64,000 nt of DNA from Psychromonas sp. SA13A. Its GTDB lineage: Bacteria; Pseudomonadota; Gammaproteobacteria; Enterobacterales; Psychromonadaceae. Below are positions 22,451 to 51,125 of the stretch, one piece after another; position 1 is the first letter of the stretch, and the number at the start of each line of letters is the position of its first letter. The DNA is taken from the NCBI RefSeq assembly GCF_011378715.1, contig NZ_WTKU01000010.1, positions 1 to 64,000 of the forward strand. The letters are read 5' to 3'. Position numbers and translations under genes: made by a program. The notes below the pieces were generated by a model, which ran no database searches, was not told the origin of the DNA, and worked only from the letters and a program-made list of their open reading frames with translations.

Positions 22451-22577
22451 TCTGATTATCCTTAGCGGTCATCGAATTGAGACTTAACATACATAGATGG
22501 GAAAATTTAATATTTAATTGTGCTGACTTTTTTGGTTTAGTCAATTTAGTATTTTAGCTGGCGTGGCTGTTGGATAT

Positions 22578-22659
22578 TTAGCTTGAGTTTGGTTTAGGTT
22601 TGGCTCGTCTGCCCTCGACATGACGGATTGGTATTTAGGTTGAGTTTGGTTTAGGTTTG
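22578..22659. repeat. Leading partial repeat before the 361-base array
   Basis: A short direct duplication precedes copy 1. The segment beginning TTGAGTTTGGTTTAGG at 22583 recurs at 22640, 57 bases later, each ending in the GGCTCGTCTG that opens every repeat unit. It looks like the truncated end of another copy. Confidence 0.6.
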
Positions 22660-23020
22660 GCTCGTCTGCGCTCGTCGGGTCAGTTTGATATTTATTAACT
22701 GTGGTTTCGCCCTATCGGCGACACGCCTTTCTTTTATCAGAAAAGAAAGGCGGCAAAGAAACTGACACCGAGGCGTTTTCTTATCCAATCTAAACTGTCA
22801 TTTTAAACGCACCATGTCAGGATGGCCGTCCATGGCCATTCTGACATTATCGCAAACGTCCTGTTTGCGATTGCTAAAATGTCAGTTTAGCTTGGGAAAA
22901 CTTTACGCTGGGGTTGTTCGTCCACAATGGGTGATGGCTTTGTTGTAGCTATATTAAACTAAATATTGATGACCATTTCTGATTTAAAATGAAAGACTAT
23001 CAATGAATGCTTGAGTTATA
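22660..23020. repeat. Structured tandem repeat, copy 1 (361 bases)
   Basis: Parts in order: CGCC/GGCG mini-hairpin (22708-22720); a perfect 12-base stem CGCCTTTCTTTT/AAAAGAAAGGCG (22724-22752) with a 5-base loop; then a three-way junction at 22773-22908. The outer stem pairs CTAAACTG-CATTTTA (22790-22805) with TAAAATG-CAGTTTAG (22875-22890) around one T/T mismatch, plus CCAA/TTGG and GCG/CGC beyond. Inside are hairpin 22815-22846 (13 base pairs with one G/T pair) and hairpin 22849-22871 (9 perfect pairs). No protein is encoded. Confidence 0.9.
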
Positions 23021-23384
23021 GCTCGTCTACGCTCGTCAGATCAGTTTTATCATTATTAGCATTGGTTTCGCCCTATCGGCGACACGTCTTTCTTTTATCA
23101 GAAAAGAAAGGCGGCAAAGAAACTGACAGCGAGGCGTTTTCTGATCCAATCTAAACTGTCATTTTAAACGCACCATGTCAGGATGGCCGTCCATGGCCAT
23201 TCTGACATTATCGCAAACGTCCTGTTTGCGATTGCTAAAATGTCAGTTTAGCTTGGGAAAACTTTACGCTGAGATTGTTCGTCCACAATGGGTGATGGTT
23301 TTGTTGTTGCTGTATTGGACTAAAGGTTGGTGATCCTTTTTTATTAAAAATCAAAGGCGAGCAATAAATGCTTTGAGTTATGTG
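23021..23384. repeat. Structured tandem repeat, copy 2 (364 bases)
   Basis: Same order of elements as copy 1, with near-identity across the junction part (23134-23270) and more divergence in the spacer that follows it. The first hairpin has one G-C pair changed to a T/G pair, which keeps pairing possible if the element works as RNA. Confidence 0.88.
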
Positions 23385-23745
23385 GCTCGTCTATGCTCGT
23401 CGGGGCAACTTGATTGTTAATAGCAGTGGTTTCGCCCTGTCGGCGACATTACTTTCTTTTATCAGAAAAGAAAGTATGCAAAGAAACTGACACCGAGGCG
23501 TTTTCTGATCCAATCTAAACCAGCATTTTAAACGCATCATATCAGGATGGCCGTCCGTGGTCATTCTGACATTATCGCAAACGTCCTGTTTGCGATTGCT
23601 AAAATGTCAGTTTAGCTTGGGAAAACTTTACGCTGGGGTTGTTCGTCCACAATGGGTGATGGCTTTGTTGTAGCTATATTAAACTAAATATTGGTGATCA
23701 TTTCTGATTTAAAATGAAAGGCTATCAATGAATGCTTGAGTTATA
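23385..23745. repeat. Structured tandem repeat, copy 3 (361 bases)
   Basis: In this copy the first hairpin reads TACTTTCTTTT/AAAAGAAAGTA (23450-23476). Two base pairs at its foot are replaced on both sides relative to the GC..GC of copy 1, a compensatory change. The junction is kept with several mismatches in its outer stem. Confidence 0.88.
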
Positions 23746-24000
23746 GCTCGTCTACGCTCGTCGGGGCAACTTGATTGTTAATAGCAGTGGTTTCGCCCTG
23801 TCGGCGACACGTCTTTCTTTTATCAGAAAAGAAAGGCGGCAAAGAAACTGACACCGAGGCGTTTTCTGATCCAATCTAAAGCGTCATTTTAAACGCACCA
23901 TGTCAGGATGGCCGTCCGTGGCCATTCTGACATTATCGCAAACGTCCTGTTTGCGATTGCTAAAATGTCGATTTAGCTTAGGAAAACTTTACGGTGGTGA
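23746..24000. repeat. Structured tandem repeat, copy 4 (3' truncated)
   Basis: Matches the other copies through the junction up to GAAAACTTTACG near 23992, then departs. In the outer stem one T-A pair of copy 1 is a C-G pair here, while the neighbouring pair is lost. The spacer that ends the other units is missing. Confidence 0.85.
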
Positions 24001-24173
24001 TTTTGCAGCCACGGTGTTCAATGTGGTTTGCCGCTTGAAATTGATCATTCAACTGATTGCTCATACGGATAAAACACTTTGTCTTAAGGTCGCTTTGTCA
24101 TCATGTTAGCCTGGGAAAACTTTACGGTGGTGATATTGCAGCCACGTTGATCGATGTAGTTTGTAAGTTGAAA
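23973..24173. repeat. Two-copy 70-base direct repeat after the array
   Basis: The stretch GGAAAACTTTACGGTGGTGA plus the following GCAGCCACG (from 23981) recurs from 24114, about 132 bases later, with scattered differences. It extends the 3' arm of the junction of copy 4 and so looks like a decayed relative of the array. Confidence 0.7.
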
Positions 24174-24209: not shown

Positions 24210-25496
24210 TTATAAAAAATAACGGGTTGCAAACTGCCATTGTGTTTCTACTAAATCGACAGGTTGTACACTATAAGAGCGCGCTGGCCGGTGGCTGTCA
24301 ATCACAGTGAATTCTGCAGATAAAAACCACTGCTTACTCAATCGGTAACTATGATTAAATGTTAATGCTTGGCCATCTTCGTTGTTATCGTCACCCTCTG
24401 TTTTATCATTATCAGTCACAGAGAAGTCCTCAACTCTGAGTGTACTTTTATGCTTTTTATTGGCGACTAAAGCCTGCCAATTATAATGTAAAGCAACAAA
24501 ACCACTGGCATAGTCATTATTAACCACATCTTCTTTTTCTTTACTTTGCATCAAGGTATCGCCAGACAAGTACTGCGCGGTTAAGGATAAATTATCACTC
24601 AAACGCCAGCGTGCTTCTAAGTGATAAAAACGTGTTCGCCACCCATACTGACCATCGACTACTTTATAGGGGATGGCCCTATTATCATAATAACCTGCTG
24701 ATATTGATCCTTTTCCTCTTAGTTTCCACTCGCCTCGCGTATGGTATCCAACACGGTTATCAAGCTCTAAAAAAGGATCTGATTTATGCGCTTGCCCTGC
24801 TAAATTTTTTCCATCTTCACGAGCAGGAAACCACGGAAAAGTACGTTGTTCATTCCAAAGAGTTTGCCTGTTACTTATTGCCCAACCATGCCAAGCTAAT
24901 AAAGCCCCTGCTGGATCGTTATTGATAAAGGCTGTTGCTGAAAAGGACAGATCATATTTATCGTTATTTATTCTACCTAACCGCGTTACTTTTATTTCAG
25001 TGCCGACTACTCGAATTTCTTCACCAATCCAGGTATTTAATGTTGAGGAGTCTAAGGTATCTTTACTTGCCCACGCATAGGCATTATTTTCAAGTGAGAT
25101 TTCAGGGTAGAAAAGACCAACTTTAGTTTGTAGGCGATAACCGGCACTATTGGGTATAGAGCGGTATTTTAAGTAGATCTCAGTCAACCCTAAGGCTGAC
25201 TTTTCTCCATCACCTGTTGCTTCTGGATAAGCATTAAAGACGCCATGAGCACTTAGGCCATTATCCCATGATACAGATAAATCTGCTCCTATTTGTGCAG
25301 CTGAAAAATGTACTCCATCACCTAGCCCTAATTTACCTTGCCCACCCGTTAGATAGCCTTGACCGGAGGAGTTAATGTGGTTAACTCTAAAGTCTAAGAT
25401 GCCATGAGCATTATATTCCGCAGCAATAACTACCTGCATAGGAAGGCAAGCAACAAGCAATAATAGATGTAAAGACTTAATACCCGTATTAATCAC
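24210..25496 (-). CDS. Outer-membrane beta-barrel (porin-like) protein
   Basis: 428 residues. It has a cleavable signal peptide (LLLLVACLPMQVVIAA, cut before EYNAHG), then alternating amphipathic strands with many Tyr/Trp residues, ending in the aromatic-rich ATRYFL typical of barrel C-termini. It resembles large porin-like proteins with no assigned solute. Its start overlaps the stop of the upstream GGDEF-EAL gene by 4 bases (ATGA), so it is the last gene of a three-gene operon with the c-di-GMP enzyme and the cupredoxin-like protein. Confidence 0.75.
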   Translation of the reverse strand: MINTGIKSLHLLLLVACLPMQVVIAAEYNAHGILDFRVNHINSSGQGYLTGGQGKLGLGDGVHFSAAQIGADLSVSWDNGLSAHGVFNAYPEATGDGEKSALGLTEIYLKYRSIPNSAGYRLQTKVGLFYPEISLENNAYAWASKDTLDSSTLNTWIGEEIRVVGTEIKVTRLGRINNDKYDLSFSATAFINNDPAGALLAWHGWAISNRQTLWNEQRTFPWFPAREDGKNLAGQAHKSDPFLELDNRVGYHTRGEWKLRGKGSISAGYYDNRAIPYKVVDGQYGWRTRFYHLEARWRLSDNLSLTAQYLSGDTLMQSKEKEDVVNNDYASGFVALHYNWQALVANKKHKSTLRVEDFSVTDNDKTEGDDNNEDGQALTFNHSYRLSKQWFLSAEFTVIDSHRPARSYSVQPVDLVETQWQFATRYFL

Positions 25497-27832
25497 GTAC
25501 TTCCCTTAATTTCTTTAATGTTTAAGTGAGTTAATAACCAGGGTGTTAAGTCGATTGCTGGTTTAGGCCTGCTGATGTAATAACCCTGTGCTAATTCACA
25601 GCCATTATCTGATAACCAATTTAATGCAAACTCATCTTCTATGCCTTCAGCTACTACATGCAACCCCATATTGTGGGCAAGTTCGATAGTCGAGCGTACT
25701 ATGATTTGATCGTCTTCATCATTTTCAATATTTTGGATAAATGATTTATCTATTTTTAATTCATGTACGGGTAATTGCTTTAATTGTGCTAATGAGGAAT
25801 AGCCAGTTCCGTAATCATCAATAGATATTTTCATTCCGTAGTCTTTAAACTCAGCTAAGACTTTAATCGCTGCTTCAGGATCTTCTACCACTGAGCTTTC
25901 CGTCACCTCAAGCGTAATTTTTTTAGCTGGGACATTGGCCGCTATCATGCTTTGATAAATAAACTTATGGAAGTCACTTTCTTTTAAATTTTCAGCTGAA
26001 ATATTGATGGCTATATTTAAATCTATGCCTTGTATTTTCCAAGCATTGTATTGCGCTAATGCAGTAACAAACACCCAACGGGTTAGGGCTTTAATTTGAC
26101 CTGTTTGCTCTGCAATATAGATGAAATTATCGGGTGGGATCATGCCTAAAGTAGGGTGTTCCCAGCGAACTAAGGCTTCGGCATGGGTTACCTTTCTGGT
26201 TTTTAAACACATTTTAGGTTGAAAATGTAACGCTAACTCCCCTGCTGGAATCGCTTGCTTTAAATCATTAATTAAATTTAAACGTTCAACAGTATTTATA
26301 TCAAGATCTGGGTGATATATTTGTACTAATTTACTTTGTTTTTTTGCACTGTGAAGTGCCATAACAGCCATTTGTAATAATGACTTCGCGTCAGTCGCAT
26401 GCGCTGGATAAACTGCAATACCAACTCGAACTTGAAAGTGTAAACTAATACCCTGATAGTTAAATGTAGGCTCCAGCTCAACATTGAGTTGCGTAATAAT
26501 TTCATCTACATTCATGTTTTCTGCCAACAAAACAAATTCGTCCGCCCCTATATGAGCTAACGCTTTTAAATTAGTTTTTTGGTATAAGCGCTGTAAACGA
26601 CCAGCAAGTTCTTTGATCACTTTATCACCAACATCACGGCCTAATGTATCGTTTACGTCATTTAAACGGCTCAGGTTTAAATGAAAAACTTGAAAGCTTT
26701 GTTGTTGTGCAATCAGTTGGTTAATTGTCTTATTAAGCAAGTTACGGTTCGGTAAATCGGTGAGAGGATCATGATTTGCACTATGGGTGATCGTTTCTTC
26801 TCGTAATAATACTGCCGCTTGCATTTGATTGAATTCTTCAGCAAGTTGGCCTATTTCATTTTTATCTTTTAACGACACTTTTTGCTGATAATCACCACTG
26901 GCAATCACTTTTGCTTGAGTAACTAAGCGTTTAATAGGTTTGCTGATAGACGCTGCGATAAAATAAGCACTAGTAAGCGATAACAATAGTGTTAATGCAG
27001 CTAGAAATAAGAACTTCCACCATTGTTCTTGTAATAACGCGACAAAGTTAGCGCGTAAGCCATGCATTGCTACACCTAATTCTTTATCATCAAATTCGTT
27101 AATCAGTGAGTGCGTTGCTATGTATTTATCGGGTGTTTTATTGTCAATAACCTGCACTGCTAATTCAAGCGCGTGATTATAATTTTTGTTATTTTCTTTA
27201 ATTGAAATTAATCGCCACTTACCTTCATCTTTTATAATAAAGTCAGTAGTTAAGTCGGTTATTTTTTTAAATTCATTCGCTAACCGGTGATCAATTTCAA
27301 AGCCAAAAGCAATCCATCCTAGTGTTTTAGCACCAACAGTTACGGGTGATAAACTCAGTTGATAAAGTGCATTGTCAATCATATAAAGATGGGCGGCTTG
27401 ACCAGCACCAAGCCACTCATTAAAACGAAAAATAGTGTCTCGCTCCGCGCCTTGTCGAATTTTATCTTTTCCATTGATGAAGTATCGTTGTAGTTGGCCA
27501 TTGATAACGCCTTCTGCTGTGATTGTCATCGCTAAATCAGCATCAATACGCTTTCTATGATTATTTAAAGCAAACAATAAACTGCGCGTATCCTCGTTAA
27601 ACACTTCCTTTAAGCCATAATCTTTAGCGACAGTTTCGGCAAACGTTGATAGGTAAGTCAATCTGCGATCAAATAACTCAGTAAAAATTGTTTTTGCAGT
27701 GGTTAAACGATTATTGATTTCTGCTGCTTCTTGATTTTTTTTACCGCTGTAAAGGGTCCAAAAAGCGATCGATTGAACCATTAATAGCAGGATGACAAAA
27801 AATAAAAATATTTTATTCTGTAAACTTTTCAT
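25493..27832 (-). CDS. HAMP-GGDEF-EAL membrane protein, likely c-di-GMP phosphodiesterase
   Basis: The 779-residue inner-membrane sensor has a first membrane segment at about 7-27, a periplasmic sensory domain to about 270, a second segment (WWKFLFLAALTLLLSLTSAY), a HAMP linker (SISKPIKRLVTQAKVIASGD), GGDEF, then EAL. The GGDEF signature is degenerate (IGADEF), so cyclase activity is doubtful. The EAL domain keeps EALVRWEHP, the conserved NISAENL, EVTESSV, the DDYGTGYSS loop, KIDKSF and VAEGIE, so hydrolysis of c-di-GMP is likely. Its gene partners suggest that it senses something delivered by the cupredoxin or porin proteins. Confidence 0.92.
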   Translation of the reverse strand: MKSLQNKIFLFFVILLLMVQSIAFWTLYSGKKNQEAAEINNRLTTAKTIFTELFDRRLTYLSTFAETVAKDYGLKEVFNEDTRSLLFALNNHRKRIDADLAMTITAEGVINGQLQRYFINGKDKIRQGAERDTIFRFNEWLGAGQAAHLYMIDNALYQLSLSPVTVGAKTLGWIAFGFEIDHRLANEFKKITDLTTDFIIKDEGKWRLISIKENNKNYNHALELAVQVIDNKTPDKYIATHSLINEFDDKELGVAMHGLRANFVALLQEQWWKFLFLAALTLLLSLTSAYFIAASISKPIKRLVTQAKVIASGDYQQKVSLKDKNEIGQLAEEFNQMQAAVLLREETITHSANHDPLTDLPNRNLLNKTINQLIAQQQSFQVFHLNLSRLNDVNDTLGRDVGDKVIKELAGRLQRLYQKTNLKALAHIGADEFVLLAENMNVDEIITQLNVELEPTFNYQGISLHFQVRVGIAVYPAHATDAKSLLQMAVMALHSAKKQSKLVQIYHPDLDINTVERLNLINDLKQAIPAGELALHFQPKMCLKTRKVTHAEALVRWEHPTLGMIPPDNFIYIAEQTGQIKALTRWVFVTALAQYNAWKIQGIDLNIAINISAENLKESDFHKFIYQSMIAANVPAKKITLEVTESSVVEDPEAAIKVLAEFKDYGMKISIDDYGTGYSSLAQLKQLPVHELKIDKSFIQNIENDEDDQIIVRSTIELAHNMGLHVVAEGIEDEFALNWLSDNGCELAQGYYISRPKPAIDLTPWLLTHLNIKEIKGST

Positions 27833-27858
27833 GCATTAACTTCTTCTATTTTCTGCGG

Positions 27859-28581
27859 CTAGTAATCGGAAATAAAATCAAAATCATCACTTGTTTGCAC
27901 GGGGATATCATCCATCGCTTTCTGTAGCGTAAATGTTGTGATCTCTGCACTTAATAGTTCTTTTTCTACTATCATGCGATTATTTTCAGCGCGCATTTGT
28001 GGGTGCCAAACCACCACTCTGTACTTTCCTAACTCAGTTAATGTAAAACTCGCCACTCCTTGCTCATCAGTTTTAGCAAAATATGGTGTATCAACAACTA
28101 AAAGGTAACCGCTCATCCAATCATGAATATTACATCCCATAGCAATTTCAGCAGCGTGATCAAAATGTGTTGATGAATCAGTCTCACCGGAGCGAATTTT
28201 AAAAGAAAATTTGTTTTCACTATCGGCTGAATAAATATGATGGGTAATATCATCTTTATTCACAAAGTTAACCTTATCGGATTTTTGGCTAACACTGATA
28301 TAGGGAATAAAAGATTTGCTATGTTGGCTAATTTCAACCGTCTTATTCTGCTGTGGAACAACCTGATTTGCTAACGGTTCAAGATATACCACCATATTAG
28401 CCAAAGGTTGATTCTTTACATTATTTACTTGGACTTGAACACACGTTGGATCTTCTTTTGTGCAAGCTTGTACTGAGGTCGATGCAAACGTGAAGATAAG
28501 CGCTGAAAAAATAGGTAAACCAAAACGTAAAAGTGAAAAACGAATAACGAAAAAGCGAAAGAATAAAGAATGTTTCAACAT
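27859..28581 (-). CDS. Secreted cupredoxin-like protein (methylamine-utilisation-type annotation)
   Basis: 240 residues with a signal peptide (LPIFSALIFTFASTSVQA, cut before CTKEDPTC). The plastocyanin-like fold is shown by a His in DITHHIYSAD and by a C-terminal Cys-His-Met cluster, MGCNIHDWMSGY, which fits a type 1 copper site. A carbohydrate-binding-like beta domain follows (TDEQGVASFTLTELGKYRVVV). Homologues are often labelled methylamine utilisation protein, but no such genes lie near. AGGAG stands just before ATG 28581. It heads the operon with the GGDEF-EAL and porin-like genes. Confidence 0.78.
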   Translation of the reverse strand: MLKHSLFFRFFVIRFSLLRFGLPIFSALIFTFASTSVQACTKEDPTCVQVQVNNVKNQPLANMVVYLEPLANQVVPQQNKTVEISQHSKSFIPYISVSQKSDKVNFVNKDDITHHIYSADSENKFSFKIRSGETDSSTHFDHAAEIAMGCNIHDWMSGYLLVVDTPYFAKTDEQGVASFTLTELGKYRVVVWHPQMRAENNRMIVEKELLSAEITTFTLQKAMDDIPVQTSDDFDFISDY

Positions 28582-31826: not shown

Positions 31827-32039
31827 TAGCTCGTCTCCGCTCGTGAGGTCAGTTTTATCATTATTAGCTCTGGTTTAGCCCTGTCGGCGACACGTCTTTC
31901 TTTTATCAGAAAAGAAAGGCGGCAAAGAAACTGACACCGGATCGTTTTGTGATGGCTGTGCTGAATTCAACATTGCAGTTTCTTTTTGATTTAAAACGAA
32001 AGGCTAGCAATGGATGCTTTGAGTTTGGTTTAATTTTTT
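31827..32039. repeat. Structured repeat, copy 5, lacking the junction module
   Basis: Opens with GCTCGTCTCCGCTCGTGAGG and keeps the first hairpin (CTTTCTTTT/AAAAGAAAGG at about 31896-31919) and the following GGCAAAGAAACTGACACCG. It then jumps directly to the spacer part of the unit (GTGATGGCT...GAAAGGCTAGCAATG). The whole three-way junction of copies 1-4 is missing, about 150 bases. Confidence 0.8.
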
Positions 32040-50565: not shown

Positions 50566-51125
50566 TTAACCCGATCTTCTTCATGGTTCATTGCTTTTCG
50601 CTTTTTATCTTAAAAACATAAAGCAACCACGAAGCCGCTGCGCTGCACCGAGAGCACGAAGAAAAGCTAAACAATAAAAGTAAAACAATAACCAAGTGAA
50701 TAAATATAAGTTTCAAATCCTTTTACATAATGATTTTGACCTAACCTTCTTCACCCTTCGTGCCTTCGTGGTTCATTGCTTTTTGCTTGTAATCTTAAAA
50801 AATAAAGCAACCACGAAGCCGCTGCGCTCCACAGAGAACACGAAGAAAAGCTAAACAAACCCAAGTGAATGAATAGAAATTTTAAATGCTTTTACATAAT
50901 GATTTTGACCTAACCTTCTTCACCCTTCGTGGTTCATTGCTTTTTGCTTGTAATCTTAAAAAATAAAGCAACCACGAAGCCGCTGCGCTTCACAGAGAGC
51001 ACGAAGAAAAGCTAAATCATAAAAAAGAACCAAGTGAATAAATATAAGTTTCAAATCCTTTTACATAATGATTTTGACCTAACCCTCTTCACCCCGCATA
51101 CCTTCATCGCTAATTGCTTTTGCTT
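50566..51125. repeat. Three tandem copies of a 160-185-base hairpin repeat
   Basis: The marker AAGCAACCACGAAGCCGCTG starts at 50621, 50805 and 50966; a fourth, partial unit ends near 51125. In the best copy CTTCGTGGTT pairs with AACCACGAAG (about 50764-50817) and GCTTT with AAAGC inside, giving a long hairpin. The units are joined by a conserved stretch TTTTACATAATGATTTTGACC followed by TAACC. No coding capacity. It looks like an intergenic repetitive family of the genome. Confidence 0.85.

Follow-up and report, generated by a model that had tools for sequence, protein, structure and literature searches.

A tandem array of a dispersed, two-module TwoAYGGAY repeat in Psychromonas, read as a putative CsrA decoy

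We analyzed a 64,000-nucleotide stretch of the Psychromonas sp. SA13A genome (contig NZ_WTKU01000010.1, positions 1-64,000; hereafter the window). TRF located a tandem array at 22660-23997 with a period of 361 bp, 3.7 copies and 89% matches, and the Rfam model TwoAYGGAY (RF01731) matched within each of four copies, confirming the four tandem 361-base copies of the original prediction. Successive copies are spaced 361, 364 and 361 bp apart (own-genome search, corrected for where each match starts in the query). In line with the claim that no protein is encoded, there is no ORF of >=80 aa within 22660-23997. A minus-strand ORF (24210-25496) ends ~200 bp upstream of the array. The features are listed below; R1 denotes a covariance model that we built from genus copies only.

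22660-23997, minus as the likely RNA strand: whole array, 3.7 units of 361 bp (TRF, own-genome search, Rfam)
22660-22676, minus: conserved 3' tip of the element, GACGAGCGCAGACGAGC on the minus strand, placed by eye (flank listing)
22707-22721, minus: copy 1, small conserved module A hairpin TCGCC..GGCGA (fold, pair counts)
22727-22749, minus: copy 1, module A hairpin, shared 23-base core from which the stem extends outward (folds, copy comparison)
22774-22907, minus: copy 1, TwoAYGGAY module, RF01731 64.0 bits (R1: 22784-22899, 105.2 bits)
22829-22831, minus: copy 1, GGA of the longer-hairpin loop, CAUGGACG (sequence, loop counts)
22859-22861, minus: copy 1, GGA of the 9-pair-hairpin loop, CAGGACG (sequence, loop counts)
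23088-23110, minus: copy 2, module A hairpin (folds, copy comparison)
23119-23279, minus: copy 2, TwoAYGGAY module, RF01731 63.7 bits (R1: 23145-23260, 105.2 bits)
23452-23474, minus: copy 3, module A hairpin with two compensated pairs (copy comparison)
23499-23632, minus: copy 3, TwoAYGGAY module, RF01731 45.9 bits (R1: 23509-23624, 91.9 bits)
23813-23835, minus: copy 4, module A hairpin (copy comparison)
23844-24004, minus: copy 4, TwoAYGGAY module, RF01731 61.3 bits (R1: 23870-23985, 98.9 bits)
31859-32025, no strand assigned: partial copy in two pieces, 31859-31953 and 31940-32025 (one full unit plus parts at this place in P. arctica)

Other repeats and signals also lie in the window. A 57-bp sub-repeat (2.2 copies, 22569-22694; TRF) carries the element tip and adjoins the array, and similarly stacked tips flank some other copies of the element. 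A second tandem repeat occupies 50579-51094 (169 bp x 3.0), its unit containing CTTCGTGGTT and CCACGAAG, and the window edge (1-48) matches the Rfam family Alpha operon ribosome binding site.

The RF01731 matches (cmscan at gathering thresholds, 43 bits for this family) cover, on the minus strand, the three-way junction in each of the four copies, at 45.9-64 bits; the junction of the original prediction, drawn on the plus strand, is therefore a known candidate RNA on the opposite strand. The perfect hairpin that had been described next to it belongs to a second conserved module (module A), which lies 3' of the junction on the minus strand, outside the Rfam match, and in which the fold shows a further small hairpin, TCGCC..GGCGA. 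Module B, the TwoAYGGAY part, consists of an outer stem and a junction enclosing two neighboring hairpins with loops CA(N)GGAYG. The loop of the longer hairpin reads AUGGAC in copies 1 and 2 and ACGGAC in copies 3 and 4, both of which fit AYGGAY; that of the 9-pair hairpin reads AGGAC, one base short of AYGGAY and aligned with a deletion, and both loop forms occur among other copies. With tips placed by eye, the element is roughly 290 bp long.

Membership in RF01731 and conservation of the structure are firm: all four copies exceed the gathering cut-off and contain what marks the family, two hairpins with GGA loops set in a junction that is closed by an outer stem. The element differs from the Rfam model in the one-base-shorter loop (CAGGACG), in the module A hairpins 3' of the match, and in its high copy number and tandem arrays, which the model lacks. 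The motif is listed as probably RNA and probably not cis-regulatory in the table of its 2010 discovery (PMC2864571), and Rfam gives RF01731 the type label Cis-reg. Among the open-licence papers listed, judged by titles and the starts of abstracts, we found no description of RF01731 as a dispersed multicopy repeat. What is new here is the multicopy, two-module and tandem nature of the element, with the strand and co-occurrence evidence given below; CsrA binding was already proposed in 2014.

The claim that every copy has the same architecture finds support for the junction, whose minus-strand folds beat shuffled sequences in all four copies (z -4.99, -4.78, -3.01 and -5.60); for the first-hairpin region, minus-strand folds of two of the four copies gave z -4.65 and -1.66. 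The compensatory change noted in the first hairpin of copy 3 is real, GC..GC of copy 1 being replaced by TA..TA on either side of the common CTTTCTTTT-AAAAGAAAG stem, and one of these two pairs reads T..G in copies 2 and 4. Copy 4 likewise shows the T-A to C-G change described for its outer stem; the adjacent pair, however, is broken in that copy, as are about three outer-stem pairs in copy 3. Because of these broken pairs the array alone is weak evidence for covariation, and the selection on structure that had been read from it is strongly supported instead by copies from across the genus.

An nhmmer search of the genus loci yielded 143 non-redundant copies, 106 of them full-length. For alignment A1 we took module B from 22 diverse copies, representing 14 genomes (one of 23 selected copies, which has a loop insert, was left out), and compared pair counts with those of shuffles. 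Two-sided changes occur at 29 of 34 pairs, with 223 such cells versus 75.8 +/- 7.0 in shuffles, counts that are not independent, as the copies share ancestry. Overall, 90.1% of cells pair versus 63.9% in shuffles and 33.5-45.7% with the partners slid, a comparison in which the scored structure has an advantage over slid partners, being the RNAalifold consensus of A1 itself. The outer stem around both hairpins is present (A1 helices 1 and 2: two-sided changes at 14 of 16 pairs; 85.6 and 89.0% of cells paired). Columns that do not vary in A1 include the CA and GGA of both loops as well as residues of the junction. The GGA of the two loops is retained in 103/106 and 104/106 full-length genus copies; among R1 matches it is found in 80/87 and 83/87 genus copies and in 24/25 and 25/25 copies from other families.

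The original prediction had suggested a search of related genomes with the 361-base unit and a covariance model of the genomic copies; the search uncovered a dispersed repeat family, and the model (R1) matches all four copies of the array. Searched with the unit, the window's genome (G000) gave 37 matches. Of 60 sampled genomes, 14 are matched, G000 among them, and every one of these belongs to the genus. RF01731 has 32 matches in G000 and, with up to 75 candidates scored in each genome, occurs in 20 of 24 Psychromonas genomes (own included; 0 to 38 matches each, four genomes without a match). At E 0.001, it was found in 90/394 genomes of an order sample, 71 of which exceeded the cut-off, and in 25/299 of a phylum sample, of which 20 did so and 24 belong to the same class; in these two scans 6 or 9 candidates were scored per genome, so that copy counts are lower bounds. 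None of the 14 control genomes was matched in any of these searches. Relatives of the element occur in other gammaproteobacterial families. R1 gave 112 matches in 80 sources, including 17 of 22 other-family loci, all of them found via RF01731 (L104, L108, L109, L112 and L114 were missed), and none in 15 control loci, taken from the 22 that a search with the flanking gene gave in addition to L120.

That search, with the flanking 428-aa protein, returned one locus at 92% identity, in Psychromonas arctica (L120). At the orthologous place P. arctica has three junction modules versus the four here, and the remnant at 31859-32025 corresponds there to one full unit plus parts. For the suggested recombination substrate, this change in array copy number is the only sign that we found. 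The gene block at 24210-28581 (an unknown 428-aa protein, a GGDEF-EAL protein and a neighbor) has 77-80% DNA identity to four Colwellia-labelled loci (L121-L124), which suggests that the block was transferred horizontally. The repeats R178 and R200 of Pseudomonas fluorescens are likewise dispersed and intergenic (101 and 320 bp), R178 with an internal 11-bp inverted repeat (PMC2718517); going by their published description only, they might be relatives of the element.

Seventy-eight of the 106 full-length copies could be placed between genes and 28 could not; 7 overlap an ORF. Close neighboring copies in the searched loci are arranged in tandem in 31 cases, 5'-facing in 11 and 3'-facing in 2 (duplicate loci L008, L060 and L188 and one cut-off match omitted). 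The 5'-facing inverted doublets recur both within the genus and in further families (L065, L071, L078, L081, L082, L096, L100, L110 and L113), with module A outermost in L065 and L100. At 52 collapsed sites the downstream gene is on the opposite strand in 33, and the upstream gene shows no preference (same strand 27, opposite strand 25).

Dispersal on this scale fits a putative non-autonomous mobile element, which had been offered as one possibility. Neither of two loci offered a clean empty site; at L011, G007 retains the gene flank and lacks the element, with only one flank aligned. By eye, single copies do not resemble one another at their tips. The window unit had no match in plasmid and phage collections, nor did two distant relatives among plasmids, and we reject an origin from either. 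REP/REPIN elements, which are associated with RAYT transposases, are dispersed hairpin repeats that occur as singlets and inverted doublets. The elements described here share this arrangement but are longer and have two modules and GGA loops, and the Y1/RAYT transposase family (PF01797) was rejected as a partner because it does not track copy number, having no match in G007 and G019 despite 38 and 29 RF01731 matches in these genomes.

The structured non-coding RNA of the original prediction is the favored option, with two amendments: the strand is opposite to the plus strand assumed, and the junction already has a place in Rfam as a candidate family. Across 38 consensus pairs read on the minus strand, G-U cells outnumber A-C cells by 102 to 32, with G-U ahead at 23 pairs and A-C at 6 (sign p 0.0023; one internal-loop position, a non-consensus pair with 14 A-C cells, and two non-pairing junction positions omitted), which points to an RNA of the minus strand; the asymmetry is indicative only, because the copies share ancestry. 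RNAalifold energies are -29.5 (minus strand) and -13.5 (plus strand). When copy 1 is folded on the plus strand, the folds are as stable as those of the minus strand (z -4.35 and -4.98), and single-copy fold energy therefore cannot tell the strand. A cruder, greedy ungapped scan of 170 hairpins gave the opposite of the aligned counts (A-C 19, G-U 11), a discrepancy that in our judgment likely stems from the 14 A-C cells at the internal-loop position. We predict that the array probably specifies a minus-strand RNA.

TwoAYGGAY RNAs were proposed to bind CsrA on the strength of motif matches, in a 2014 paper that also describes GGA hairpins as generally paired because CsrA is a dimer (PMC4333381). 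The CA(N)GGAYG loops of the element are of the CsrB-hairpin type, in the copies of other families as well. A search of G000 with the CsrB model (RF00018) returned five places, none of them in the array; the best matches (L115 and L116, 78.4 bits) lie at contig ends and are unconfirmed, cmscan of L115 listing nothing. A further locus, L117 (36.6 bits, below the cut-off), is taken as CsrB-like because of its CAGGAUG hairpins, the same as those of the element. Another candidate, sRNA-Xcc1, was set aside, no link to the element having emerged from the literature consulted.

The CsrA gene (PF02599) is present in G000; the phylum sample has it in 180/299 genomes, among them all 25 with an RF01731 match (20 over the cut-off). 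Within the class, RF01731 occurs in 24/67 CsrA-bearing versus 0/20 listed CsrA-less genomes (Fisher p 0.0011), counts that may be incomplete because 99 CsrA-less genomes of the phylum sample were not listed; with the family as the unit, the figures are 8/20 versus 0/8 (p 0.063). As in sponges of the CsrB/CsrC/RsmY type, GGA is repeated in hairpin loops of the CAGGAYG kind, two per copy and eight in the array. The array differs from such sponges in lacking an evident promoter or terminator of its own, in its absence from the RF00018 matches of the genome, and in being made of a dispersed repeat, not of one or a few sRNA genes. A consensus scan found 5 promoter-like sites, no excess over shuffles (3.7 +/- 2.0), and a single minus-strand terminator-like site, which is located within the outer stem of copy 4 and does not follow module A.

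Given the repeat family, its conserved structure and loops, its strand asymmetry and its distribution, the best reading of the element is a putative CsrA decoy. We lean, by somewhat better than an even chance, toward an interspersed repeat, present here as four copies in tandem, that encodes a two-module minus-strand RNA, with transcribed arrays predicted to titrate CsrA. The copies would be transcribed, perhaps by read-through, which is suggested because no promoter of their own is evident. Each transcribed copy would give the CsrA dimer one paired site, and a transcribed array would therefore present eight GGA hairpins; titration of CsrA by the array would free its mRNA targets. Copies may spread by a mobile or recombination process, and array size would change, probably by unequal recombination. 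Against the decoy reading stand the lack of a promoter excess and of an upstream orientation preference, the opposite outcome of the cruder hairpin scan, the equally stable plus-strand folds, the CsrA association of p 0.063 by family, the shared ancestry behind the pair counts and the four Psychromonas genomes without a match; in addition, inverted doublets place neighboring copies on opposite strands.

These doublets enter an account at the level of DNA, a non-autonomous mobile repeat (REP/MITE-like) whose single-stranded hairpins are read by a transposase and whose likeness to CsrA sites is incidental. We consider this account possible, though on the unlikely side. The dispersed copies with tips that appear sharp by eye, the mixture of tandem, 5'-facing and 3'-facing pairs, the absence of both an upstream orientation preference and a promoter excess, and the equal stability of plus-strand folds are all consistent with it, and a hairpin formed in one strand of single-stranded DNA could likewise yield a G-T bias. 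It is countered by the CsrB-type loops in several families, the G-U bias on one strand, the presence of CsrA in every sampled genome with an RF01731 match, and the lack of PF01797 in the two element-rich genomes, Y1 transposases being the only kind searched for.

That the element acts in cis, as part of the mRNA of an adjoining gene (3' UTR stability, processing or termination, possibly CsrA-mediated), seems distinctly unlikely. Upstream genes lie on either strand almost equally, the sole minus-strand terminator-like site is misplaced for such a role, and the 2010 table speaks against a cis-regulatory motif (PMC2864571), whereas the Rfam type label and the ORF that ends ~200 bp upstream on the same strand speak for it. 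Least probable, and very unlikely in our estimation, is that the copies are spent debris, once selected for structure and now neutral products of recombination and gene conversion: partial or broken copies do exist (31859-32025; the outer stem of copy 3) and match numbers range from 0 to 38 per genome, but 90.1% of cells still pair among diverged copies and the GGA loops are kept almost throughout the full-length genus copies.

Transcription of the copies and binding of CsrA, if both occur, would give an orphan RNA family a function and a global regulator a copy-number-variable and possibly mobile layer of control, and would link repeat expansion to post-transcriptional regulation. A broader and more tentative extension of the decoy reading, which we hold to be doubtful, is that selfish or domesticated mobile repeats distribute paired CsrA sites across the class, copy number setting the decoy load and rewiring the regulator genome by genome. 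Even otherwise, RF01731 matches in Psychromonas belong to a dispersed repeat that has a second conserved module, and their annotation should change.

Several individual loci have features of their own. At G000:C1:311-316 kb and G000:C7:21-22 kb (L010, L011 and L022), elements adjoin a further shared repeat (query positions 1130-1390) that by eye resembles an integron attC. Group II intron matches lie <=0.9 kb from elements in 3 of 20 scanned loci (L011, L017 and L033), and an FMN riboswitch (718-879) lies near the elements of L013. In L168 and L169, G009 and G019 each have a copy after the same gene; the module A hairpin differs between the two and module B is alike, as if modules had been exchanged. 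An insert of ~50 nt, containing GAGCGGRCTAAGCTCTGCGTGCCC, is found within the GGA hairpin loop of either hairpin, directly after the GGA in most cases (L024, 1915-1938; also L025, L037/L090, L042, L062, L079, L185, L226 and L230); L185 has a second insert site without the GGA start. The insert resembles either an element nested specifically in loops or a modular domain of the RNA.
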